DNA from: Nocardioides marmorisolisilvae
GTDB taxonomy: Bacteria > Actinomycetota > Actinomycetes > Propionibacteriales > Nocardioidaceae
Direction of reading: 5' to 3'
Length of the DNA stretch: 64,000 nucleotides
Assembly: GCF_003725775.1 (NCBI RefSeq)
Contig: NZ_RJSG01000001.1
Coordinates: 124,262 to 188,261 of the forward strand
The notes under the pieces are model-generated. The model ran no database searches. It was not told the DNA's origin and saw nothing but the letters and a program-made list of their open reading frames with translations. Positions 2,119 through 24,082 of the stretch are shown here, piece by piece (positions within the stretch are counted from its first letter, which is position 1; each line of letters begins with the position of its first letter). A program made the position numbers and the translations under genes.

Positions 2119-3387
2119 ATGTTCCGCGTATTTCTCCTGCTCGTGACGGCATCGGTCGCCCTGTACATCGCGGGCGGTCCCAGCGTGCTGCTCGAGGCCG
2201 ACCACTCGGTCAGCAACCTGGTCAGCAGCAACCGCGCGAGCACCAGCAGCGGCGTGCTGAACCGCCCCGCCATCCGCGTGCTCTCGGCGCCCGACGAGCT
2301 CGAGCTCGGTCAGCCCGGCACCGCCGAGGTCCAGGCCGAGTCGCCGGCCGTGCCGGGGACGACGATCTACCTGCGCACCGCCGGCACCTACGGCCTGGGC
2401 TACAACCAGGTGAGCAAGGCGGTCCTCGACGACAACCTGCGGGCGAGCCTGCCGATCACCGGCCGGGCCTACAAGGGCAGCTTCAACTACTGGGCGACGA
2501 TCAAGGCGACCGCGAGCTACCAGGAGGGTGACAGCGCGTCCTGGGCGATCACCATCGCCGCGGCGCCGCCCCCGCCGGCCCCGAAGTGCGGCGACGGACC
2601 GGACCCGGTCAAGGCCGACGGCACCTCGTGGACCTGCTCGTACGACGACGAGTTCGACGGTTCGACCCTGGACCGTCGCTTCTGGGTACCACAGGTCACC
2701 GCGACCAGCGGCGCGACCACCGGAACCAGCTCGATGTACGCGTGCGCGACCGACAGTCCCGACACCATCGGCGTCGCCAACGGCAACCTCGAGCTGTCCC
2801 TGGTGCAGCTGCCGGCGCCGGTGAAGTGCGGCAAGGGCAAGACCTCCCAGTACGCCTACGGGCAGGTCATGCACTTCCAGACGTTCTCGCAGACCTACGG
2901 CAAGTACGAGGTGCGCGCGAAGATCCCGGACGTCAGCGACCCGGGCGTGCAGGAGACGTTCTGGCTGTGGCCGAACAAGAACTCCTACGGCCAGTGGCCG
3001 GCCTCGGGCGAGATCGACTTCGCCGAGCTCTACAGCAAGTACGCCGACACCGACAAGCCGTACATCCACTACTACCCGGGCTCGACGAGCGCAGGGACGA
3101 ACAACAACGTCACCACGGCCAAGTGCCCGATCAAGGTCGGCGAGTTCAACACCTACGGCCTCGAGTGGGCTCCCGGGCGGCTGACCATCCTGCTCAACGG
3201 CGACGTCTGCATGATCGACGACTACTCCTCCGCGCTGGCCACGCTGCACGGCAAGACCTCACCGTTCGACAAGCCGTTCTTCCTGGCGCTGACCCAGGCG
3301 ATGGGCACGACCGGGAACGTCTACGACACGAACGTGGTGCCGGACAAGGTCACCACGTTGGTGGACTACGTGCGCATCTGGAAGTGA
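2119..3387 (+). CDS. Secreted GH16 endo-beta-glucanase (laminarinase-like)
   Basis: 422-residue exported enzyme: signal/anchor segment at residues 1-22, a beta-rich domain of about 100 residues (50-150) resembling an Ig-like or carbohydrate-handling module, a Pro-rich linker (150-156), and a GH16 jelly-roll from about 165. The retaining GH16 active site is intact: GEIDFAE with Glu298 as nucleophile, Asp300, and Glu303 as acid/base. Four Cys in the catalytic domain may form disulfides. The expected reaction is hydrolysis of beta-1,3 or mixed-linked glucans outside the cell. A second GH16 with the same catalytic layout is at 32981-34081. Substrate specificity is inference. Confidence 0.9.
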   Translation: MFRVFLLLVTASVALYIAGGPSVLLEADHSVSNLVSSNRASTSSGVLNRPAIRVLSAPDELELGQPGTAEVQAESPAVPGTTIYLRTAGTYGLGYNQVSKAVLDDNLRASLPITGRAYKGSFNYWATIKATASYQEGDSASWAITIAAAPPPPAPKCGDGPDPVKADGTSWTCSYDDEFDGSTLDRRFWVPQVTATSGATTGTSSMYACATDSPDTIGVANGNLELSLVQLPAPVKCGKGKTSQYAYGQVMHFQTFSQTYGKYEVRAKIPDVSDPGVQETFWLWPNKNSYGQWPASGEIDFAELYSKYADTDKPYIHYYPGSTSAGTNNNVTTAKCPIKVGEFNTYGLEWAPGRLTILLNGDVCMIDDYSSALATLHGKTSPFDKPFFLALTQAMGTTGNVYDTNVVPDKVTTLVDYVRIWK

Positions 3388-3406
3388 CGCGCGTAGCCTG
3401 CCAGGC

Positions 3407-4474
3407 GTGAGACCCCTCCCCTCCCTGGTTCGTGCTGCCCTCGCCCTGCTCGCCGCTGCCCTGCTGGCGAGCGTCCTCGTCGCTCCGTCGGGCACGGCGG
3501 CGACCGCCAGTGCCTACGCCCCGCTGAACCGTCCCGGTCCGGCACTGCACGTCGCGAAGGCGACGCTGGCCAAGGCGCTGGTCTGCCACAACGACCTGCG
3601 CACCGCGCCGGGCGAGCCGGTGCTGCTCAGCCCCGCCACCGGCGTCACGCCGGTACAGAACTACTCCTGGAACTACGAGCGCGCGTTCCGGGCCCAGAAG
3701 CGCGCCTGGTGCACGGTCACGATGCCGTTCCACACCCTCGGCGACATCCAGACAGCCGGCGAGTACCTCGTCTACGCGATCCGCACGATGCACGCCAAGG
3801 CCGGGCGCCGGATCGCGGTGATGGGCCACAGCCAGGGCGGCATGTCGATGCGCTGGGCACTGCGGTTCTGGCCGGACACCCGGGCGATGGTCGACGACGT
3901 GATCGGCATGGCCGGGTCCAACCACGGCACCAAGGCCGCCGCGCTGTCAGCGCCGGAGGGCAGCAAGCTCCCGCCCGCTTCGCTCCAGCAGGGCGCTGGC
4001 TCGAACTTCATCAAGGCGCTGAACAGCGGCGCGGAGACGTTCGCCGGGATCAGCTACACCGAGATCTACACCCACACCGACGAGGTGGTGCAGCCGAACA
4101 ACACCGCTGCCAACTCGTCGTCCTCGTTGCACACCGGCAACGGCATGATCACGAACGTCGCCACCCAGAGCGTGTGCCACGGGGACGTGTTCGAGCACCT
4201 GACGGTCGGCACCATCGACCCGACGACGTACGCCCTGGTGATGGACGCGCTGACCCACAAGGGTCCGGCCGTGCCGTCGCGGATCGGTCGCGCATCGTGC
4301 TCGAAGCTGTACCAGCCGGGCGTCGACCCGACGAACGTGCAGACCTACGTGCAGGTGCTGGCCGCAGCGCCGGGCCTGCTGGCCGTGAGCGTCCCGTTCG
4401 TGAACGTGGTCGGGGCGCCCGAGGTCAGCAAGGAGCCGGCGCTGCGGTGCTACGTCTACGCGGACGGCTGCTGA
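3407..4474 (+). CDS. Secreted lipase, CalB-like alpha/beta hydrolase
   Basis: 355 residues with a signal peptide (1-32). The nucleophile elbow is GHSQGG with Ser142 and is followed by W-x-L-R-F-W-P-D, very like Candida antarctica lipase B. Asp225 lies in THTDEVVQP, matching the CalB triad Asp context; His264 (or His258) in a CHGDVFEH segment is the likely third residue. Six Cys suggest disulfides in the exported enzyme. Start GTG 3407 follows TAGCCT by 7 nt (leaderless pattern), 19 bp after the GH16 stop. It probably cleaves esters or triglycerides outside the cell. Confidence 0.87.
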   Translation: MRPLPSLVRAALALLAAALLASVLVAPSGTAATASAYAPLNRPGPALHVAKATLAKALVCHNDLRTAPGEPVLLSPATGVTPVQNYSWNYERAFRAQKRAWCTVTMPFHTLGDIQTAGEYLVYAIRTMHAKAGRRIAVMGHSQGGMSMRWALRFWPDTRAMVDDVIGMAGSNHGTKAAALSAPEGSKLPPASLQQGAGSNFIKALNSGAETFAGISYTEIYTHTDEVVQPNNTAANSSSSLHTGNGMITNVATQSVCHGDVFEHLTVGTIDPTTYALVMDALTHKGPAVPSRIGRASCSKLYQPGVDPTNVQTYVQVLAAAPGLLAVSVPFVNVVGAPEVSKEPALRCYVYADGC

Positions 4475-4487
4475 GCCGTTCTCCGGA

Positions 4488-4958
4488 TCACTTCACCCGG
4501 CCGTAGTAGACCGAGCTGGTCCAGAGCTTCTCCAGCCGGACACGGGCGCCCGAGTACGGCGCGTGCCAGATGTAGCCGTTACCGGCGTAGATCCCGACGT
4601 GGTAGATGCCGCGCGAGTTGTGGAAGAACACCAGGTCTCCCTTGTGGCGCCAGCGCGAGATGATGTGGTGCACGTCGCTGTCGTTGTACTGGCCCGCGGC
4701 CGAGTGCGGCAGCGACCGGCCCAGCTTGGCGAGCGTCCACTTGGTCAGACCGGAGCAGTCGAACCGGGTCGGGCCGTCCGCGCCGTACTGGTACGGCGAA
4801 CCCTTGCGGGTCGAGGCCGTGTAGGAGATCCGGTCACCGAAGGTGGCGGTCGAGGCCTCGGCGCTCGACACCGGCATGCTGACCAGGGTGGTGAGGGTGA
4901 GCAGCGCGGCGACCAGGGTGAGCGCGCGCGCCAGAGTACGACGGATTGACGTCGTCAT
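4488..4958 (-). CDS. NlpC/P60 peptidoglycan endopeptidase
   Basis: 156 residues: signal peptide (1-35) followed directly by one NlpC/P60 domain. The catalytic set is visible: Cys68 in RFDCSGLT, His120 in IYHVGIYAGNG, His132 in IWHAPYSG. Such enzymes cut the D-Glu to diaminopimelate bond in stem peptides during growth and separation. There is no SH3 or LysM targeting domain, so the enzyme is minimal. The upstream leader carries a c-di-AMP (ydaO) riboswitch, linking expression to the second messenger that monitors wall stress and osmolarity, as known for other actinobacterial wall hydrolases. Confidence 0.93.
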   Translation of the reverse strand: MTTSIRRTLARALTLVAALLTLTTLVSMPVSSAEASTATFGDRISYTASTRKGSPYQYGADGPTRFDCSGLTKWTLAKLGRSLPHSAAGQYNDSDVHHIISRWRHKGDLVFFHNSRGIYHVGIYAGNGYIWHAPYSGARVRLEKLWTSSVYYGRVK

Positions 4959-20773: not shown

Positions 20774-22507
20774 TCAGATGGCCCAGGGACCCTCGGGCGC
20801 CTGGACCCGAGCCTCGTCGGCCTCCTGGTCGGTGAGCATCTCCTGGCTCTGCCGCTCGGCCTCGACCCGGCGCAGCCAGTGGTCGACCTCCTCGTCGATC
20901 CGGGCCTGGTCCCAGCCGAGGACGCCGGCCATCAGCTCGGCCACCTGCGGCGCGCAGAGCACGCCGCGGTCAAAGGACTCGATCGAGAGCCGGGTACGCC
21001 GGGCCAGGACGTCGTCGAGGTGCCGGGCGCCCTCGTGGGTCGCGGCGTAGACGACCTCGCCGGCCAGGTAGTCCTCGGCGTGGATCAACGGCTCGGCCAG
21101 CTCGGGGCGGTCGGCCATCAGCTGCAGGATCTCGTCGATCATCCCGCCGTACCGGCCGAGCAGGTGGTCGACGGTGGCCAGGTCCAGCCCCGAGGTCCGC
21201 GCGATGCTGGCTCGCTGGTTGGTGCGGGTCTCGAAGCCGTGGGCGCCGAGCAGCGGGACCCGCTCGGTGATGGATGGACGGACCTCACCGCCCAGGGACC
21301 GGGCGGCCACGTCGACCGCGTCCCTCGCCATCACCCGGTACGTCGTCAGCTTGCCGCCGGCGATCAGCACCAGGCCGGGCACCGGGGCGACGACGGTGTG
21401 CTCCCGGGAGATCTTCGAGGTCGCCTCGCTCTCGCCGACGAGCAGCGGTCGCAGGCCGGCGTACACGCCCTCGACGTCCTCGCGGTCCAGCGGGTCCTTC
21501 AGCAGGGTGTTCACGTGGCCGAGGATGTAGTCGATGTCGGCGCGCGAGGCAGCGGGGTGCGCCAGGTCGAGGTCCCAGGCGGTGTCGGTGGTGCCGATGA
21601 TCCAGTGCCGACCCCACGGGATCACGAACAGCACCGACTTCTCGGTCTTGGTGATGAACCCGGCCTCGGAGCGGATCCGGTCGCGCGGGACCACGATGTG
21701 CACGCCCTTGCTGGCCTGCACGTGCAGCGCACCGCGCCCGCCGACCAGCTCCTGGATCTCGTCGGTCCAGACGCCGGCGGCGTTGATGACGACCTTGGCG
21801 CGCACCTCGAGGTCGACGTCGTTCTCGAGGTCGCGGATGCTGGCCCCGCAGACCTTGGCCTGTCCTGAGCCTGTCGAAGGGTCGCCCTCGCGCAGGAAGC
21901 CGGTGACCTTGGTGCGCGAGGCCACGTGCGCCCCGTACGCCGCGGCGGTGCGCGCGATGTTCATGACCAGGCGGGCGTCGTCGACCTGGCAGTCGTAGTA
22001 CCGGATCGCGCCGGTGAGCTGGTCGGTGCGCAGGTCGGGCGCGATCCGCGCGATCTGGCGGCGGAACAGGTGCTTGTGCTTGGGCACGCCCATCTCGTAC
22101 TTGCCGGCCATCGCCATGCCGTCGTACAGGACCAGGCCGGCACCGACGTACGGGCGCTCCCGGGTCTTGTGCAGCGGGTAGAGGAACGGCACCGGGCGGA
22201 CCAGGTGCGGCGCGATCCGGGTGAGCAGCAGGCCGCGCTCCTCAAGGGCTTCGCGGACCAGGCCGAAGTCGAACATCTCCAGGTAGCGCAAGCCGCCGTG
22301 GACCAGCTTGCTGCTGCGGCTGCTGGTGCCGCTGGCGAAGTCGCGCTGCTCAACCAGGGCGGTCGAGAGCCCGCGCGACACGGCATCCAGGGCGATGCCC
22401 GCGCCGACCACGCCGGAGCCGACCACCAGCACGTCGACCTCCTGGGTCGACATCCCGGTCAGCGCGGCGGCGCGCGAGCCGGGTCCGAGGTCTGCGGTCA
22501 GCGCCAT
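20774..22507 (-). CDS. glpD: Glycerol-3-phosphate dehydrogenase (FAD-dependent)
   Basis: 577 residues. Oxidises sn-glycerol-3-phosphate to DHAP and passes electrons to quinones at the membrane. N-terminal FAD fold DVLVVGSGVVGAGIALDAV, then SGTSSRSSKLVHGGLRYLE (GlpD signature), VINAAGVWTDEI, and a C-terminal DAO_C domain. Start ATG 22507 has AAGACT 7 nt upstream. At residues 208-217 (GDPSTGSGQA) the protein carries an in-frame insert encoded by a mobile repeat (see 21857-21886). No glpF or glpK is adjacent. Confidence 0.96.
   Translation of the reverse strand: MALTADLGPGSRAAALTGMSTQEVDVLVVGSGVVGAGIALDAVSRGLSTALVEQRDFASGTSSRSSKLVHGGLRYLEMFDFGLVREALEERGLLLTRIAPHLVRPVPFLYPLHKTRERPYVGAGLVLYDGMAMAGKYEMGVPKHKHLFRRQIARIAPDLRTDQLTGAIRYYDCQVDDARLVMNIARTAAAYGAHVASRTKVTGFLREGDPSTGSGQAKVCGASIRDLENDVDLEVRAKVVINAAGVWTDEIQELVGGRGALHVQASKGVHIVVPRDRIRSEAGFITKTEKSVLFVIPWGRHWIIGTTDTAWDLDLAHPAASRADIDYILGHVNTLLKDPLDREDVEGVYAGLRPLLVGESEATSKISREHTVVAPVPGLVLIAGGKLTTYRVMARDAVDVAARSLGGEVRPSITERVPLLGAHGFETRTNQRASIARTSGLDLATVDHLLGRYGGMIDEILQLMADRPELAEPLIHAEDYLAGEVVYAATHEGARHLDDVLARRTRLSIESFDRGVLCAPQVAELMAGVLGWDQARIDEEVDHWLRRVEAERQSQEMLTDQEADEARVQAPEGPWAI
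21857..21886 (-). repeat. Dispersed repeat inserted in frame in glpD
   Basis: The stretch reads CCTTCGACAGGCTCAGGACAGG on the minus strand, a word I know as a dispersed intergenic and intragenic repeat in many high-GC genomes; its translations (PSTGSGQA, PEPVEG, LSLSKG) recur inside unrelated proteins. Here it adds about 10 residues between two beta strands of GlpD without breaking the frame. Only this copy is seen in the window. Confidence 0.7.
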
Positions 22508-22541
22508 GGCGCCAAGTCTTCCAGACCCCGGACCCGGGTTC

Positions 22542-22577
22542 TCAGCAGCCGCAGCAGCCGCAACCACAGGTGTCCAT
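22542..22577 (-). CDS. Cys-rich 11-residue peptide MDTCGCGCCGC
   Basis: An 11-codon open frame with five cysteines (positions 4, 6, 8, 9, 11) and four glycines. It has a near-perfect Shine-Dalgarno AAGGAGG with 6-nt spacing before the ATG, one of the best ribosome-binding sites in a window where many genes lack any. It is divergent from the arsR-aqpS-arsC operon, next to its operator region, and 34 bp upstream of glpD. It could be a translated metal(loid)-binding peptide or a Cys-codon leader peptide for glpD. Too short for homology evidence. Confidence 0.55.
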   Translation of the reverse strand: MDTCGCGCCGC

Positions 22578-22598
22578 GCCACGCCTCCTTCCCGATAG

Positions 22599-22659
22599 AT
22601 ATCGATGAATGTCGATGTCTACGTTGCAGGCATACATCGATGTCTGTCAATATTGATGT
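22599..22659. promoter_or_regulatory. ArsR operator/divergent promoter region
   Basis: AT-rich 60-bp gap with four copies of a TCGATG or TTGATG word and inverted repeats (ATCGA-N6-TCGAT near 22601-22616; ACATC-N16-GATGT at 22634-22659). It ends at the arsR start. Such AT-rich dyads next to an ArsR gene are the usual autoregulatory sites. CAATAT ends 6 nt before the arsR ATG and may be its -10. Confidence 0.65.
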
Positions 22660-23013
22660 ATGTCGAAGTCCTTGACGCTGACGCCCGTGGAAACGGTCGC
22701 GTGCTGCTCACCCCTGGTGTCCGCGCCGCTCGCCGAGGAGACGGCCGAGCGCATCGCTCCGCTGCTCAAGGCGATCGCGGATCCCGTCCGCCTCCGGCTG
22801 CTCTCCCTCGTCGCGGCGCACGCGGACGGCGAGGCCTGCGTCTGCGACCTCAACGGCGCCTTCGACCTCTCCCAGCCGACGATCAGCCACCACCTGAAGG
22901 TGCTCCACGAGGTCGGGCTGCTCGAGCGCAGCAAGCGCGGCGTCTGGGTCTACTACCGAGCCCGGCGTGAGGCGCTGGCCGATCTCGGCTCGCTGATCGG
23001 CGGCGGACTGTGA
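22660..23013 (+). CDS. arsR: ArsR-family arsenite-responsive repressor
   Basis: 117 residues, winged helix-turn-helix with LKAIADPVRLRLLSLV and SQPTISHHLKVLHEVGLLE (recognition helix). Cysteines are at 15, 16, 60 and 62; the N-terminal Cys pair plus one in the CVCDL segment matches the As(III) site type described for Corynebacterium CgArsR, rather than the E. coli CxC-only type. Expected to leave DNA when As(III) or Sb(III) binds. The stop overlaps the aqpS GTG by 4 nt; it heads the ars operon. Confidence 0.93.
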   Translation: MSKSLTLTPVETVACCSPLVSAPLAEETAERIAPLLKAIADPVRLRLLSLVAAHADGEACVCDLNGAFDLSQPTISHHLKVLHEVGLLERSKRGVWVYYRARREALADLGSLIGGGL

Positions 23014-23690
23014 GCCTCGCCCGTCGCGCGACCGCCGAGCTGGTCGGGACCGCCTTCCTGGTCGCCTGCGTGATCGGCTCCGGCATCGCCGCGTCGCGCC
23101 TGTCCCCCGACGACACCGGGCTCCAGCTGCTCGAGAACAGCCTGGCCACCGGAGCCGTGCTGGTCGCGCTGATCCTCACGCTGCAGCCGGTCTCGGCCGT
23201 CTTCAACCCGGTGGTCAGCGCGGTCGAGGCCGCGCTCGGCCTGATCCGCTGGTCCGAGGCAGCGGTGCTCGCCGCGGCCCAGGTCCTCGGCGGGATACTC
23301 GGCGCGGTCGTCGCCAACCTGATGTTCGACCTCGACGCGGTCACCTGGTCGACGCACGAGCGCAGCGCCGGACACCTCTGGCTCGGCGAGGTGGTCGCGA
23401 CCTTGGGGCTGGTGCTGGTCGTCTTCGGCGGGATCCGCTCCGGCCGCACCGAGTCGATCGCCTTCGCGGTCGGCGGCTACATCGCCGCGGCGTACTGGTT
23501 CACCTCCTCGACGAGCTTCGCCAACCCGGCGGTGACCATCGCGCGAATGTTCTCCAACACGTTCGCGGGCATCGACCCGTCCTCGGTCGCCATGTTCGTG
23601 CTGATGCAGGTCGTCGGCGGTGCGCTCGCCCTCGGCCTGGTCCGTCTGCTGTTCCCTGTCACCGAGCTCGCCGAAGGAGCCGTCCGATGA
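23010..23690 (+). CDS. aqpS: MIP-family aquaglyceroporin, AqpS-like arsenite channel
   Basis: 226 residues, six membrane spans with two half-helix loops: FNPVVS (first NPA box changed to NPV, N66) and FANPAVTIAR (second, N172). Placed between arsR and arsC, it takes the role of an arsenite efflux pump: As(III) formed from arsenate leaves down its gradient, as shown for Sinorhizobium AqpS. Start GTG 23010 overlaps arsR; stop overlaps arsC (ATGA). No arsB or acr3 pump is in the window. Confidence 0.88.
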   Translation: MSLARRATAELVGTAFLVACVIGSGIAASRLSPDDTGLQLLENSLATGAVLVALILTLQPVSAVFNPVVSAVEAALGLIRWSEAAVLAAAQVLGGILGAVVANLMFDLDAVTWSTHERSAGHLWLGEVVATLGLVLVVFGGIRSGRTESIAFAVGGYIAAAYWFTSSTSFANPAVTIARMFSNTFAGIDPSSVAMFVLMQVVGGALALGLVRLLFPVTELAEGAVR

Positions 23691-24082
23691 CCCGTCCCAC
23701 CGTCCTCTTCGTCTGCGTGCACAACGCCGGTAGGTCCCAGATGGCCGCGGGGTTCCTCCAGCACCTCGCGGGCGACCGGGTGGACGTGCTGTCCGCCGGC
23801 TCGGCACCGGCGGACCAGATCAACCCGACCGCGATCGAGGCGATGGCCGAGGTCGGCATCGACATCGCCGGCGAGCAGCCGAAGGTACTCACCACCGAGT
23901 CGGTGCAGGCCTCCGACGTGGTGATCACGATGGGCTGCGGCGACGCCTGCCCGTTCTACCCGGGCAAGCGCTACGAGGACTGGAAGCTCGACGACCCAGC
24001 CGGCCAGGGCATCGAGGCGGTGCGGCCGATCCGCGACGAGATCCGGAGCCGGGTCGAGGCCCTGATCGCCAGCCTCGGCTGA
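23687..24082 (+). CDS. arsC: Arsenate reductase, low-Mr phosphatase fold
   Basis: 131 residues. Reduces As(V) to As(III). The P-loop CVHNAGRS (Cys10 to Arg16, CX5R) is the nucleophile loop; Cys84 and Cys88 in TMGCGDACPFYPG form the disulfide relay, so it is of the thioredoxin or mycothiol-coupled class. DDP near residue 102-104 supplies the general acid Asp. Third gene of the operon, overlapping aqpS by 4 nt. Confidence 0.95.
   Translation: MTRPTVLFVCVHNAGRSQMAAGFLQHLAGDRVDVLSAGSAPADQINPTAIEAMAEVGIDIAGEQPKVLTTESVQASDVVITMGCGDACPFYPGKRYEDWKLDDPAGQGIEAVRPIRDEIRSRVEALIASLG

Follow-up and report, generated by a model that had tools for sequence, protein, structure and literature searches.

The window, a 64,000-nucleotide stretch of DNA analysed here as a whole, holds between a divergent arsenic (ars) operon and glpD an unannotated open reading frame (ORF) of only 11 codons, MDTCGCGCCGC, and the question that it raises is whether so small a frame is a gene and, if so, what its product might do. 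The preliminary description of this DNA had offered two answers: an arsenite-binding micropeptide, or a leader peptide that senses cysteine codons on behalf of glpD. There is good support for its being a genuine gene tied to the ars system, one of a group of similarly tiny genes found repeatedly in actinobacterial ars operons. As the best explanation, with a probability of roughly two in three, we regard a thiol-rich micropeptide under ArsR control whose task is the capture of trivalent arsenic; binding, translation and induction are predicted from sequence.

The reading frame and its surroundings

The ORF lies on the minus strand at 22542..22577, TGA stop included, and reads ATG GAC ACC TGT GGT TGC GGC TGC TGC GGC TGC TGA from 22577 to 22542. 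Five of its 11 codons specify cysteine, giving it the high and clustered cysteine content of metallothionein-like peptides. The Shine–Dalgarno (SD) sequence AAGGAGG (22584..22590, minus strand) is separated from the ATG by a 6 nt spacer, CGTGGC; a strong SD also precedes the frame in 15 listed micropeptide relatives, and a weak one in G258. The sequence confirms the frame as first described (11 residues, five cysteines, AAGGAGG 6 nt before the ATG). It also shows the frame pointing away from an operon made up of arsR, a gene for a MIP channel and arsC, and ending 34 nt before the glpD ATG at 22507. A strict filter (ORFs starting with ATG, no longer than 30 codons, with four or more cysteines and a cysteine content of 24% or above, scored with and without an SD) returned this ORF alone in the 64-kb window, whether or not an SD was required; fifteen 64-kb Markov copies of the window gave none with an SD and one without. 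The ORF is not a chance occurrence.

The start codon of arsR (22660..23013, plus strand) lies 82 nt from that of the micropeptide, in divergent orientation. The encoded protein is an ArsR/SmtB member with an EACVCDL motif (NF033788, 91.1 bits against a cut-off of 55), and its gene is followed on the same strand by a MIP channel gene at 23010..23690, AqpS-like by position and scoring under the family cut-off, and by the arsenate-reductase-like arsC at 23687..24082, whose best match (106.6 bits) is below the equivalog cut-offs; the gene beyond arsC is one that we take to be guaB-like. On the other side, glpD (20774..22507, minus strand) is treated as a neighbour and not counted as part of the ars system. 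Since a −10-like AAGACT (22515..22520, minus strand) stands 7 nt before the ATG at 22507, glpD looks leaderless, which suggests a promoter of its own; a similar box is seen by eye in relatives without ars genes. If glpD began at an upstream GTG at 22582, its 5' end would cover the micropeptide, read in a different frame; the alignment of glpD relatives starts at the ATG at 22507. Inside glpD and in frame with it, CTGTCCTGAGCCTGTCGAAGGGTC (window 21860-21883) resembles repeats upstream of glpD in locus L030.

When the window's gap between arsR and the micropeptide was scanned for general sigma-70 promoters, none was detected. Comparison of arsR-divergent regions places a conserved box, here TTGACA (22645..22650, minus strand), as a putative −35 element, with a −10-like CAACGT (22621..22626, minus strand) 18 nt from it. 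A presumed ArsR operator, ACATCAATATTGACAGACATCGATGT (22634..22659), overlaps the −35 box and is conserved in arsR-divergent regions, and presumed second ArsR half-sites, AGACATCGACATTCATCGATATCT (22597..22620), lie between this promoter and the SD.

Relatives of the micropeptide and the place of arsI

A glpD search matched all 24 genomes of the genus (G018 by a distant paralogue only), and the region upstream of glpD was read in 22 loci, G018 and G021 being excluded. Five of the 22 have an SD-led cysteine micropeptide just before glpD, each with operator-like sequence: MDTCGCGCCGC in the window (G000), MSANDCGCGCCGC in G017, MAENECCDCCGCC in G012, MSENECCDCCGCC in G016 and MCDCGCC in G010. 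Conservation of the ATG, SD and cysteine pattern, on which the preliminary description had staked its reading, holds in these five loci and fails elsewhere, where this ars arrangement is missing. No micropeptide is found where a guaB-like gene runs straight into glpD (L013, L015, L016, L020 and L022), and in G005 and G019 its place between arsR and glpD is taken by arsI (arsI/cadI, which encodes a carbon–arsenic lyase; with 192 bits the product from G005 clears the NF041414 cut-off of 116). At E<=1e-20, arsI is absent from four of the five genomes with a glpD-linked micropeptide, the window genome among them; the arsR and arsI of G017 are on another contig than its micropeptide. Beside the micropeptide and glpD of G017, arsR is cut to its first codons with operator-like sequence kept (L007/L011, about 1000-1140, by eye), as though the ars operon had been lost at this site.

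With the window ArsR as query, 188 of 341 family genomes were matched, and the side opposite arsR was examined in the best-scoring 110. Among these 110, arsI/cadI is found in 82, with its start at a distance of 46-130 nt from the matched arsR, a cysteine-rich ORF of 7-29 residues in eight and neither in 20. The eight are G000, G010, G012 and G016, together with G226 (Nocardioides sp. Root240; MDDCCTGTGCC), G166 (MTEIEAACCARAGDDSDCCGGVPCC), G194 (MTDLEIACCADAAVAEASTDGCCGGIPCC, under 24% cysteine and outside the strict filter) and G258 (MTTTHDDCCDPGCCGGCC, with a weak SD and also outside it). The stretches read around the last four (1.4-1.5 kb for the first three) contain no glpD match: the next gene-like start in G226 is 194 nt away, a reverse tRNA-Lys follows the micropeptide in G166 and G194, and arsC begins one base past the micropeptide stop in G258. 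The two longer peptides among the relatives, of 25 and 29 residues, matched no family in NCBIfam. In 76 of the 82 arsI proteins CC occurs within the last six residues, apart from the catalytic pair. The tails of Nocardioidaceae arsI/cadI proteins are highly variable in both length and sequence.

In an ArsR tree of 81 rows that includes five divergent micropeptide loci, these five sit in two places inside the arsI-bearing Nocardioidaceae. Because the tree (a short alignment with many forks open) needs three changes, two of which are forced by well-supported branches, arsI has likely been replaced more than once; alternatively, gain followed by loss may account for the distribution.

The region between arsR and its divergent partner was compared across these loci by anchoring on the conserved TTGACA-like box and asking for a −10 pattern, yANNNT, at 17 or 18 nt. 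Such a box is present in 80 of 82 arsI loci, seven of eight micropeptide loci and one of 20 loci with neither (Fisher p = 5e-5 for micropeptide against neither, an optimistic value since related genomes are not independent). The micropeptide locus without it is G166; the single exception among the 20 is G181, where another frame begins. A downstream operator-like site occurs at 71/82 arsI loci, 7/8 micropeptide loci and 0/20 with neither (p = 7e-6, optimistic for the same reason). An earlier version of the test, with a looser operator pattern, gave 7/8 for micropeptide loci, 70/82 for arsI and 3/20 for neither, and for the −10 box, with one locus anchored on the wrong TTGAC, 6/8, 76/82 and 1/19. 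The promoter and operator architecture is common to arsR/arsI and micropeptide loci, and these promoter- and operator-like sites are kept alongside the micropeptide and lost at loci with neither gene.

In a wider search, the strict filter with SD was run over 80 named arsR loci (406,482 bases). It returned 11 SD-led matches, all ars-linked: four face arsR, and the other seven belong to Arthrobacter or Sinomonas ars operons. Two further matches without an SD are longer starts of one of these 11 ORFs. The loci had been chosen for arsR, so what counts is the absence of matches among the rest of their genes. Within operons, the frame follows the channel gene (MSTGCCDDECCEDGQDCC) or arsC (MTTGCCENGCCDDDQDCC, MRTTGCCDDGCCEETECC, MAGGDDDCCCDDSCECC and MKNGCCGDSGCCDDDQDCC, the last before a flavin-oxidoreductase-like frame), and in Sinomonas sp. 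ASV486 (L216, about 2959-4802) MDTCCCNNSCQNGCCEDQDCC lies between arsR and arsA (320.8 bits, PF02374). The Micrococcaceae micropeptides in ars operons mostly take the form CC-x-CC-x-CC. A search of 295 Micrococcaceae genomes, the family of Arthrobacter, for a triple-CC pattern gave 33 rows, 30 of them with loci examined. In six of the 30 the match falls in an ATG ORF with an SD and no more than 35 residues, and each of these ORFs is beside arsR and a MIP channel gene or arsC. In L255, MCCGLTCCWSDGCC is a CC-x-CC-x-CC ORF without an SD and away from any ars gene. On a plasmid of Arthrobacter sp. FW305-BF8, MTNGCCGDSGCCDDDQDCC stands between trxB and a FAD-dependent oxidoreductase gene, with no feature over it in the plasmid gene table, which is incomplete; five other plasmid ars loci (L314-L318) yielded no micropeptide. 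Linkage to ars genes is seen in more than one lineage, namely Nocardioidaceae and Micrococcaceae.

An SD-to-CC pattern applied to a class sample of 394 genomes gave 56 rows, nine of which are SD-led cysteine ORFs; two were already known, seven form family f21 (MDCCDDQITDCCNTGCC and kin), and all nine adjoin an ArsR-family gene. In f21 an arsC gene, 84% identical to that of the window, adjoins the regulator in one of seven loci (L297), and no arsenic gene was found in the stretches read of the other six. The f21 peptides (L296-L299, L301, L303 and L304) are of a 17-residue MDCCDDQxTDCCDTGCC type, divergent from the ArsR-family gene, and come after a small protein, some 64 residues long, that in most cases has a tail with a pair of cysteines. 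Separately, in L231 (G411) a 46-residue cysteine-rich ORF (MTATEAGTPLASSCWSATDQTACC...) lies opposite arsR, directly before a frame that is arsM-like by eye. Peptides this short defeat homology statistics, and what can be claimed across families is likeness, with common descent a possibility.

In some pairs of relatives the ORF is conserved above its flanks, which we count in favour of a real gene. The ORFs of G769 and G875 share 15 identical codons, with three synonymous and two non-synonymous differences (92% identity, against 75% and 68% in the flanks); L211 and G909 have ten identical, three synonymous and two non-synonymous codons (flanks 56% and 51%); the last seven codons of L202 and L189 are identical (flanks 55% and 51%); and in the last nine codons of G000 and G017 eight are identical and one synonymous, with 58% identity downstream. 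For L179/L180 there are two synonymous and no non-synonymous changes with flanks already at 92-93%, and G012/G016, with no synonymous and one non-synonymous change, differ too little to inform on selection.

Possible roles of the peptide

On the reading that we favour, ArsR would repress the micropeptide from an operator common to it and arsR-aqpS-arsC. Arsenite would free ArsR, giving a short mRNA with a strong SD and, from it, an 11-residue peptide made mostly of cysteine and glycine, whose clustered thiols would most likely bind the As(III) made by ArsC, with MAs(III) and Sb(III) as further possible ligands; the peptide would buffer or carry the metalloid on a small scale before its exit by way of the channel. 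We propose binding of As(III) because the thiol pattern resembles trivalent-arsenic sites (those of ArsD and the ArsI pair) and because most arsI tails end in CC. The arsenic role put forward in the preliminary description is strongly supported by the ars linkage in two named families, at the arsI position or inside operons, and by the promoter and operator that copies opposite arsR have in common with it; the binding itself stays a prediction. Against the proposal, the peptide is optional at arsR loci (arsI instead in 82/110 and neither in 20/110, for the best 110 of 188), and there are exceptions to its features in the weak SD of G258, the missing yANNNT −10 of G166 and the non-ars setting of L255.

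A model in which the micropeptide occurs only where the Acr3 pump is missing was considered and set aside. Acr3 scores above cut-off in 0/15 micropeptide genomes against 4/18 arsI genomes, numbers too small to build on, and ArsB-family matches are present in 6/15 micropeptide genomes, so that these cannot be taken to be pump-free.

Cysteine clusters bind many soft metals, and the product might be a general, metallothionein-like thiol peptide under ArsR that serves mainly for Cd, Zn, Sb, Bi or redox buffering, and not for arsenic. The f21 relatives are consistent with such a role, as they adjoin an ArsR-family regulator without an assigned metal and have arsC in only 1/7 loci. We nevertheless think it unlikely, given that the companions of the Nocardioidaceae and Micrococcaceae copies are arsC, MIP channel, flavin oxidoreductase, trxB or ArsA genes and that peptide-less loci carry arsI.

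Somewhat less probable is a functionless remnant of a deleted arsI that is still translated because the promoter and SD of the gene have survived. The micropeptide does occupy the arsI position, and arsI tails are CC-ended in 76/82; moreover, when the spacer from stop codon to glpD was compared with that of the arsI genome G019, none of 300 shuffles did as well for G012, G016 and G017 and 3/300 did for G000. For G010, however, 42/300 shuffles were as good, the other arsI genome (G005) gave a poorer spacer match, and sequence adjacent to glpD is itself constrained. Promoter- and operator-like sites persist at micropeptide loci and have decayed at the 20 loci that lack both genes, the Micrococcaceae copies stand at other operon positions with conserved cysteine patterns, and G017 retains both operator-like sequence and peptide though little more than the first codons of the neighbouring arsR is left. 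We retain an ArsI tail as a possible origin, with a shared stop position supported for some genomes, and not as an account of function.

The second answer of the preliminary description, a leader in which the speed of ribosomes through the cysteine codons sets glpD expression in the manner of mycobacterial polycysteine leaders, we reject as highly improbable. The ORF is cysteine-rich, co-directional with glpD and close upstream of it, four genus relatives are alike, and short cysteine-responsive ORFs exist in mycobacteria (PMC9031893, PMC9094748). However, the start of glpD is of the leaderless type and is preceded by a −10-like box of its own, and other genus members retain glpD without the peptide. 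Outside the genus, the stretches read around the copies in G226, G166, G194 and G258 contain no glpD; in the first three no gene stands directly downstream, the place of glpD in the window, and two Sinomonas loci have their next gene-like frames in the reverse direction (by eye). In the window, the leader RNA folds no better than shuffled sequence (z = 0.13) and a terminator scan was negative. The lack of fold and terminator, together with operon-internal and glpD-free copies, argues against a leader.

Least probable of all is a peptide regulator that binds ArsR or arsenite and tunes the switching-off of the repressor, giving feedback and not detoxification; transcription opposite arsR from a shared operator region is compatible with this, but operon-internal copies far from arsR fit an effector role better.

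An As(III)-capturing micropeptide, were it confirmed, would mean that functional genes of 7-29 codons lie unannotated in well-studied ars operons, missed by length-limited annotation, and that bacteria own an encoded thiol peptide for arsenite; plants make their phytochelatins enzymatically. It would also show a peptide taking over from an enzyme gene with the promoter unchanged, and would make it easy to study how small a protein can be and still be useful. More speculatively, and with the odds against so wide a claim, these peptides of 7-29 residues may form an overlooked actinobacterial class of arsenic carriers, phytochelatin-like but made on ribosomes. One lineage would have derived them from an arsI that shrank, perhaps repeatedly, to its cysteine tail with the promoter kept, and they would hand arsenite to AqpS, or to ArsA at the ArsD position, as minimal metallochaperones.

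Comparison with known systems

A literature search confined to open-licence papers found no description of an ars-linked cysteine micropeptide of this kind. ArsI/CadI (NF041414) shares with the micropeptide its place opposite arsR, the promoter- and operator-like sites and a terminal cysteine motif, and ArsI is described as binding its substrate at a vicinal cysteine pair (PMC12607644). ArsI/CadI differs in its VOC enzyme domain, which the 11-codon ORF does not contain; the micropeptide is a cysteine-rich stretch of 7-29 residues, whether remnant or new.

ArsD (PF06953) also carries cysteine pairs, and in Escherichia coli this arsenite metallochaperone uses Cys12, Cys13 and Cys18 (PMC4562236). 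The Sinomonas sp. ASV486 copy occupies the usual arsD place, between arsR and arsA. The ArsD domain is missing from the micropeptide, and PF06953 matched in none of nine genomes searched, that of Sinomonas sp. ASV486 included, which speaks against a relationship with ArsD.

Polycysteine leaderless short ORFs of mycobacteria were reportedly treated by Canestrari in 2020. They are like the micropeptide in being tiny, cysteine-rich and actinobacterial; they are leaderless and regulate downstream genes (PMC9031893, PMC9094748), which makes them a different thing from the micropeptide. The latter is set apart by its SD, its ArsR linkage, its occurrence without glpD outside the genus and the lack of an attenuator in the window; AAGGAGG and its 6-nt spacer are not the leaderless start of such leaders.

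Bacterial metallothioneins and eukaryotic phytochelatins are thiol-dense metal-binding peptides, and the Gly-Cys repeats of the micropeptide recall phytochelatin. It differs from both groups in combining a length of 7-29 residues with being gene-encoded and lying in or beside an ars operon.
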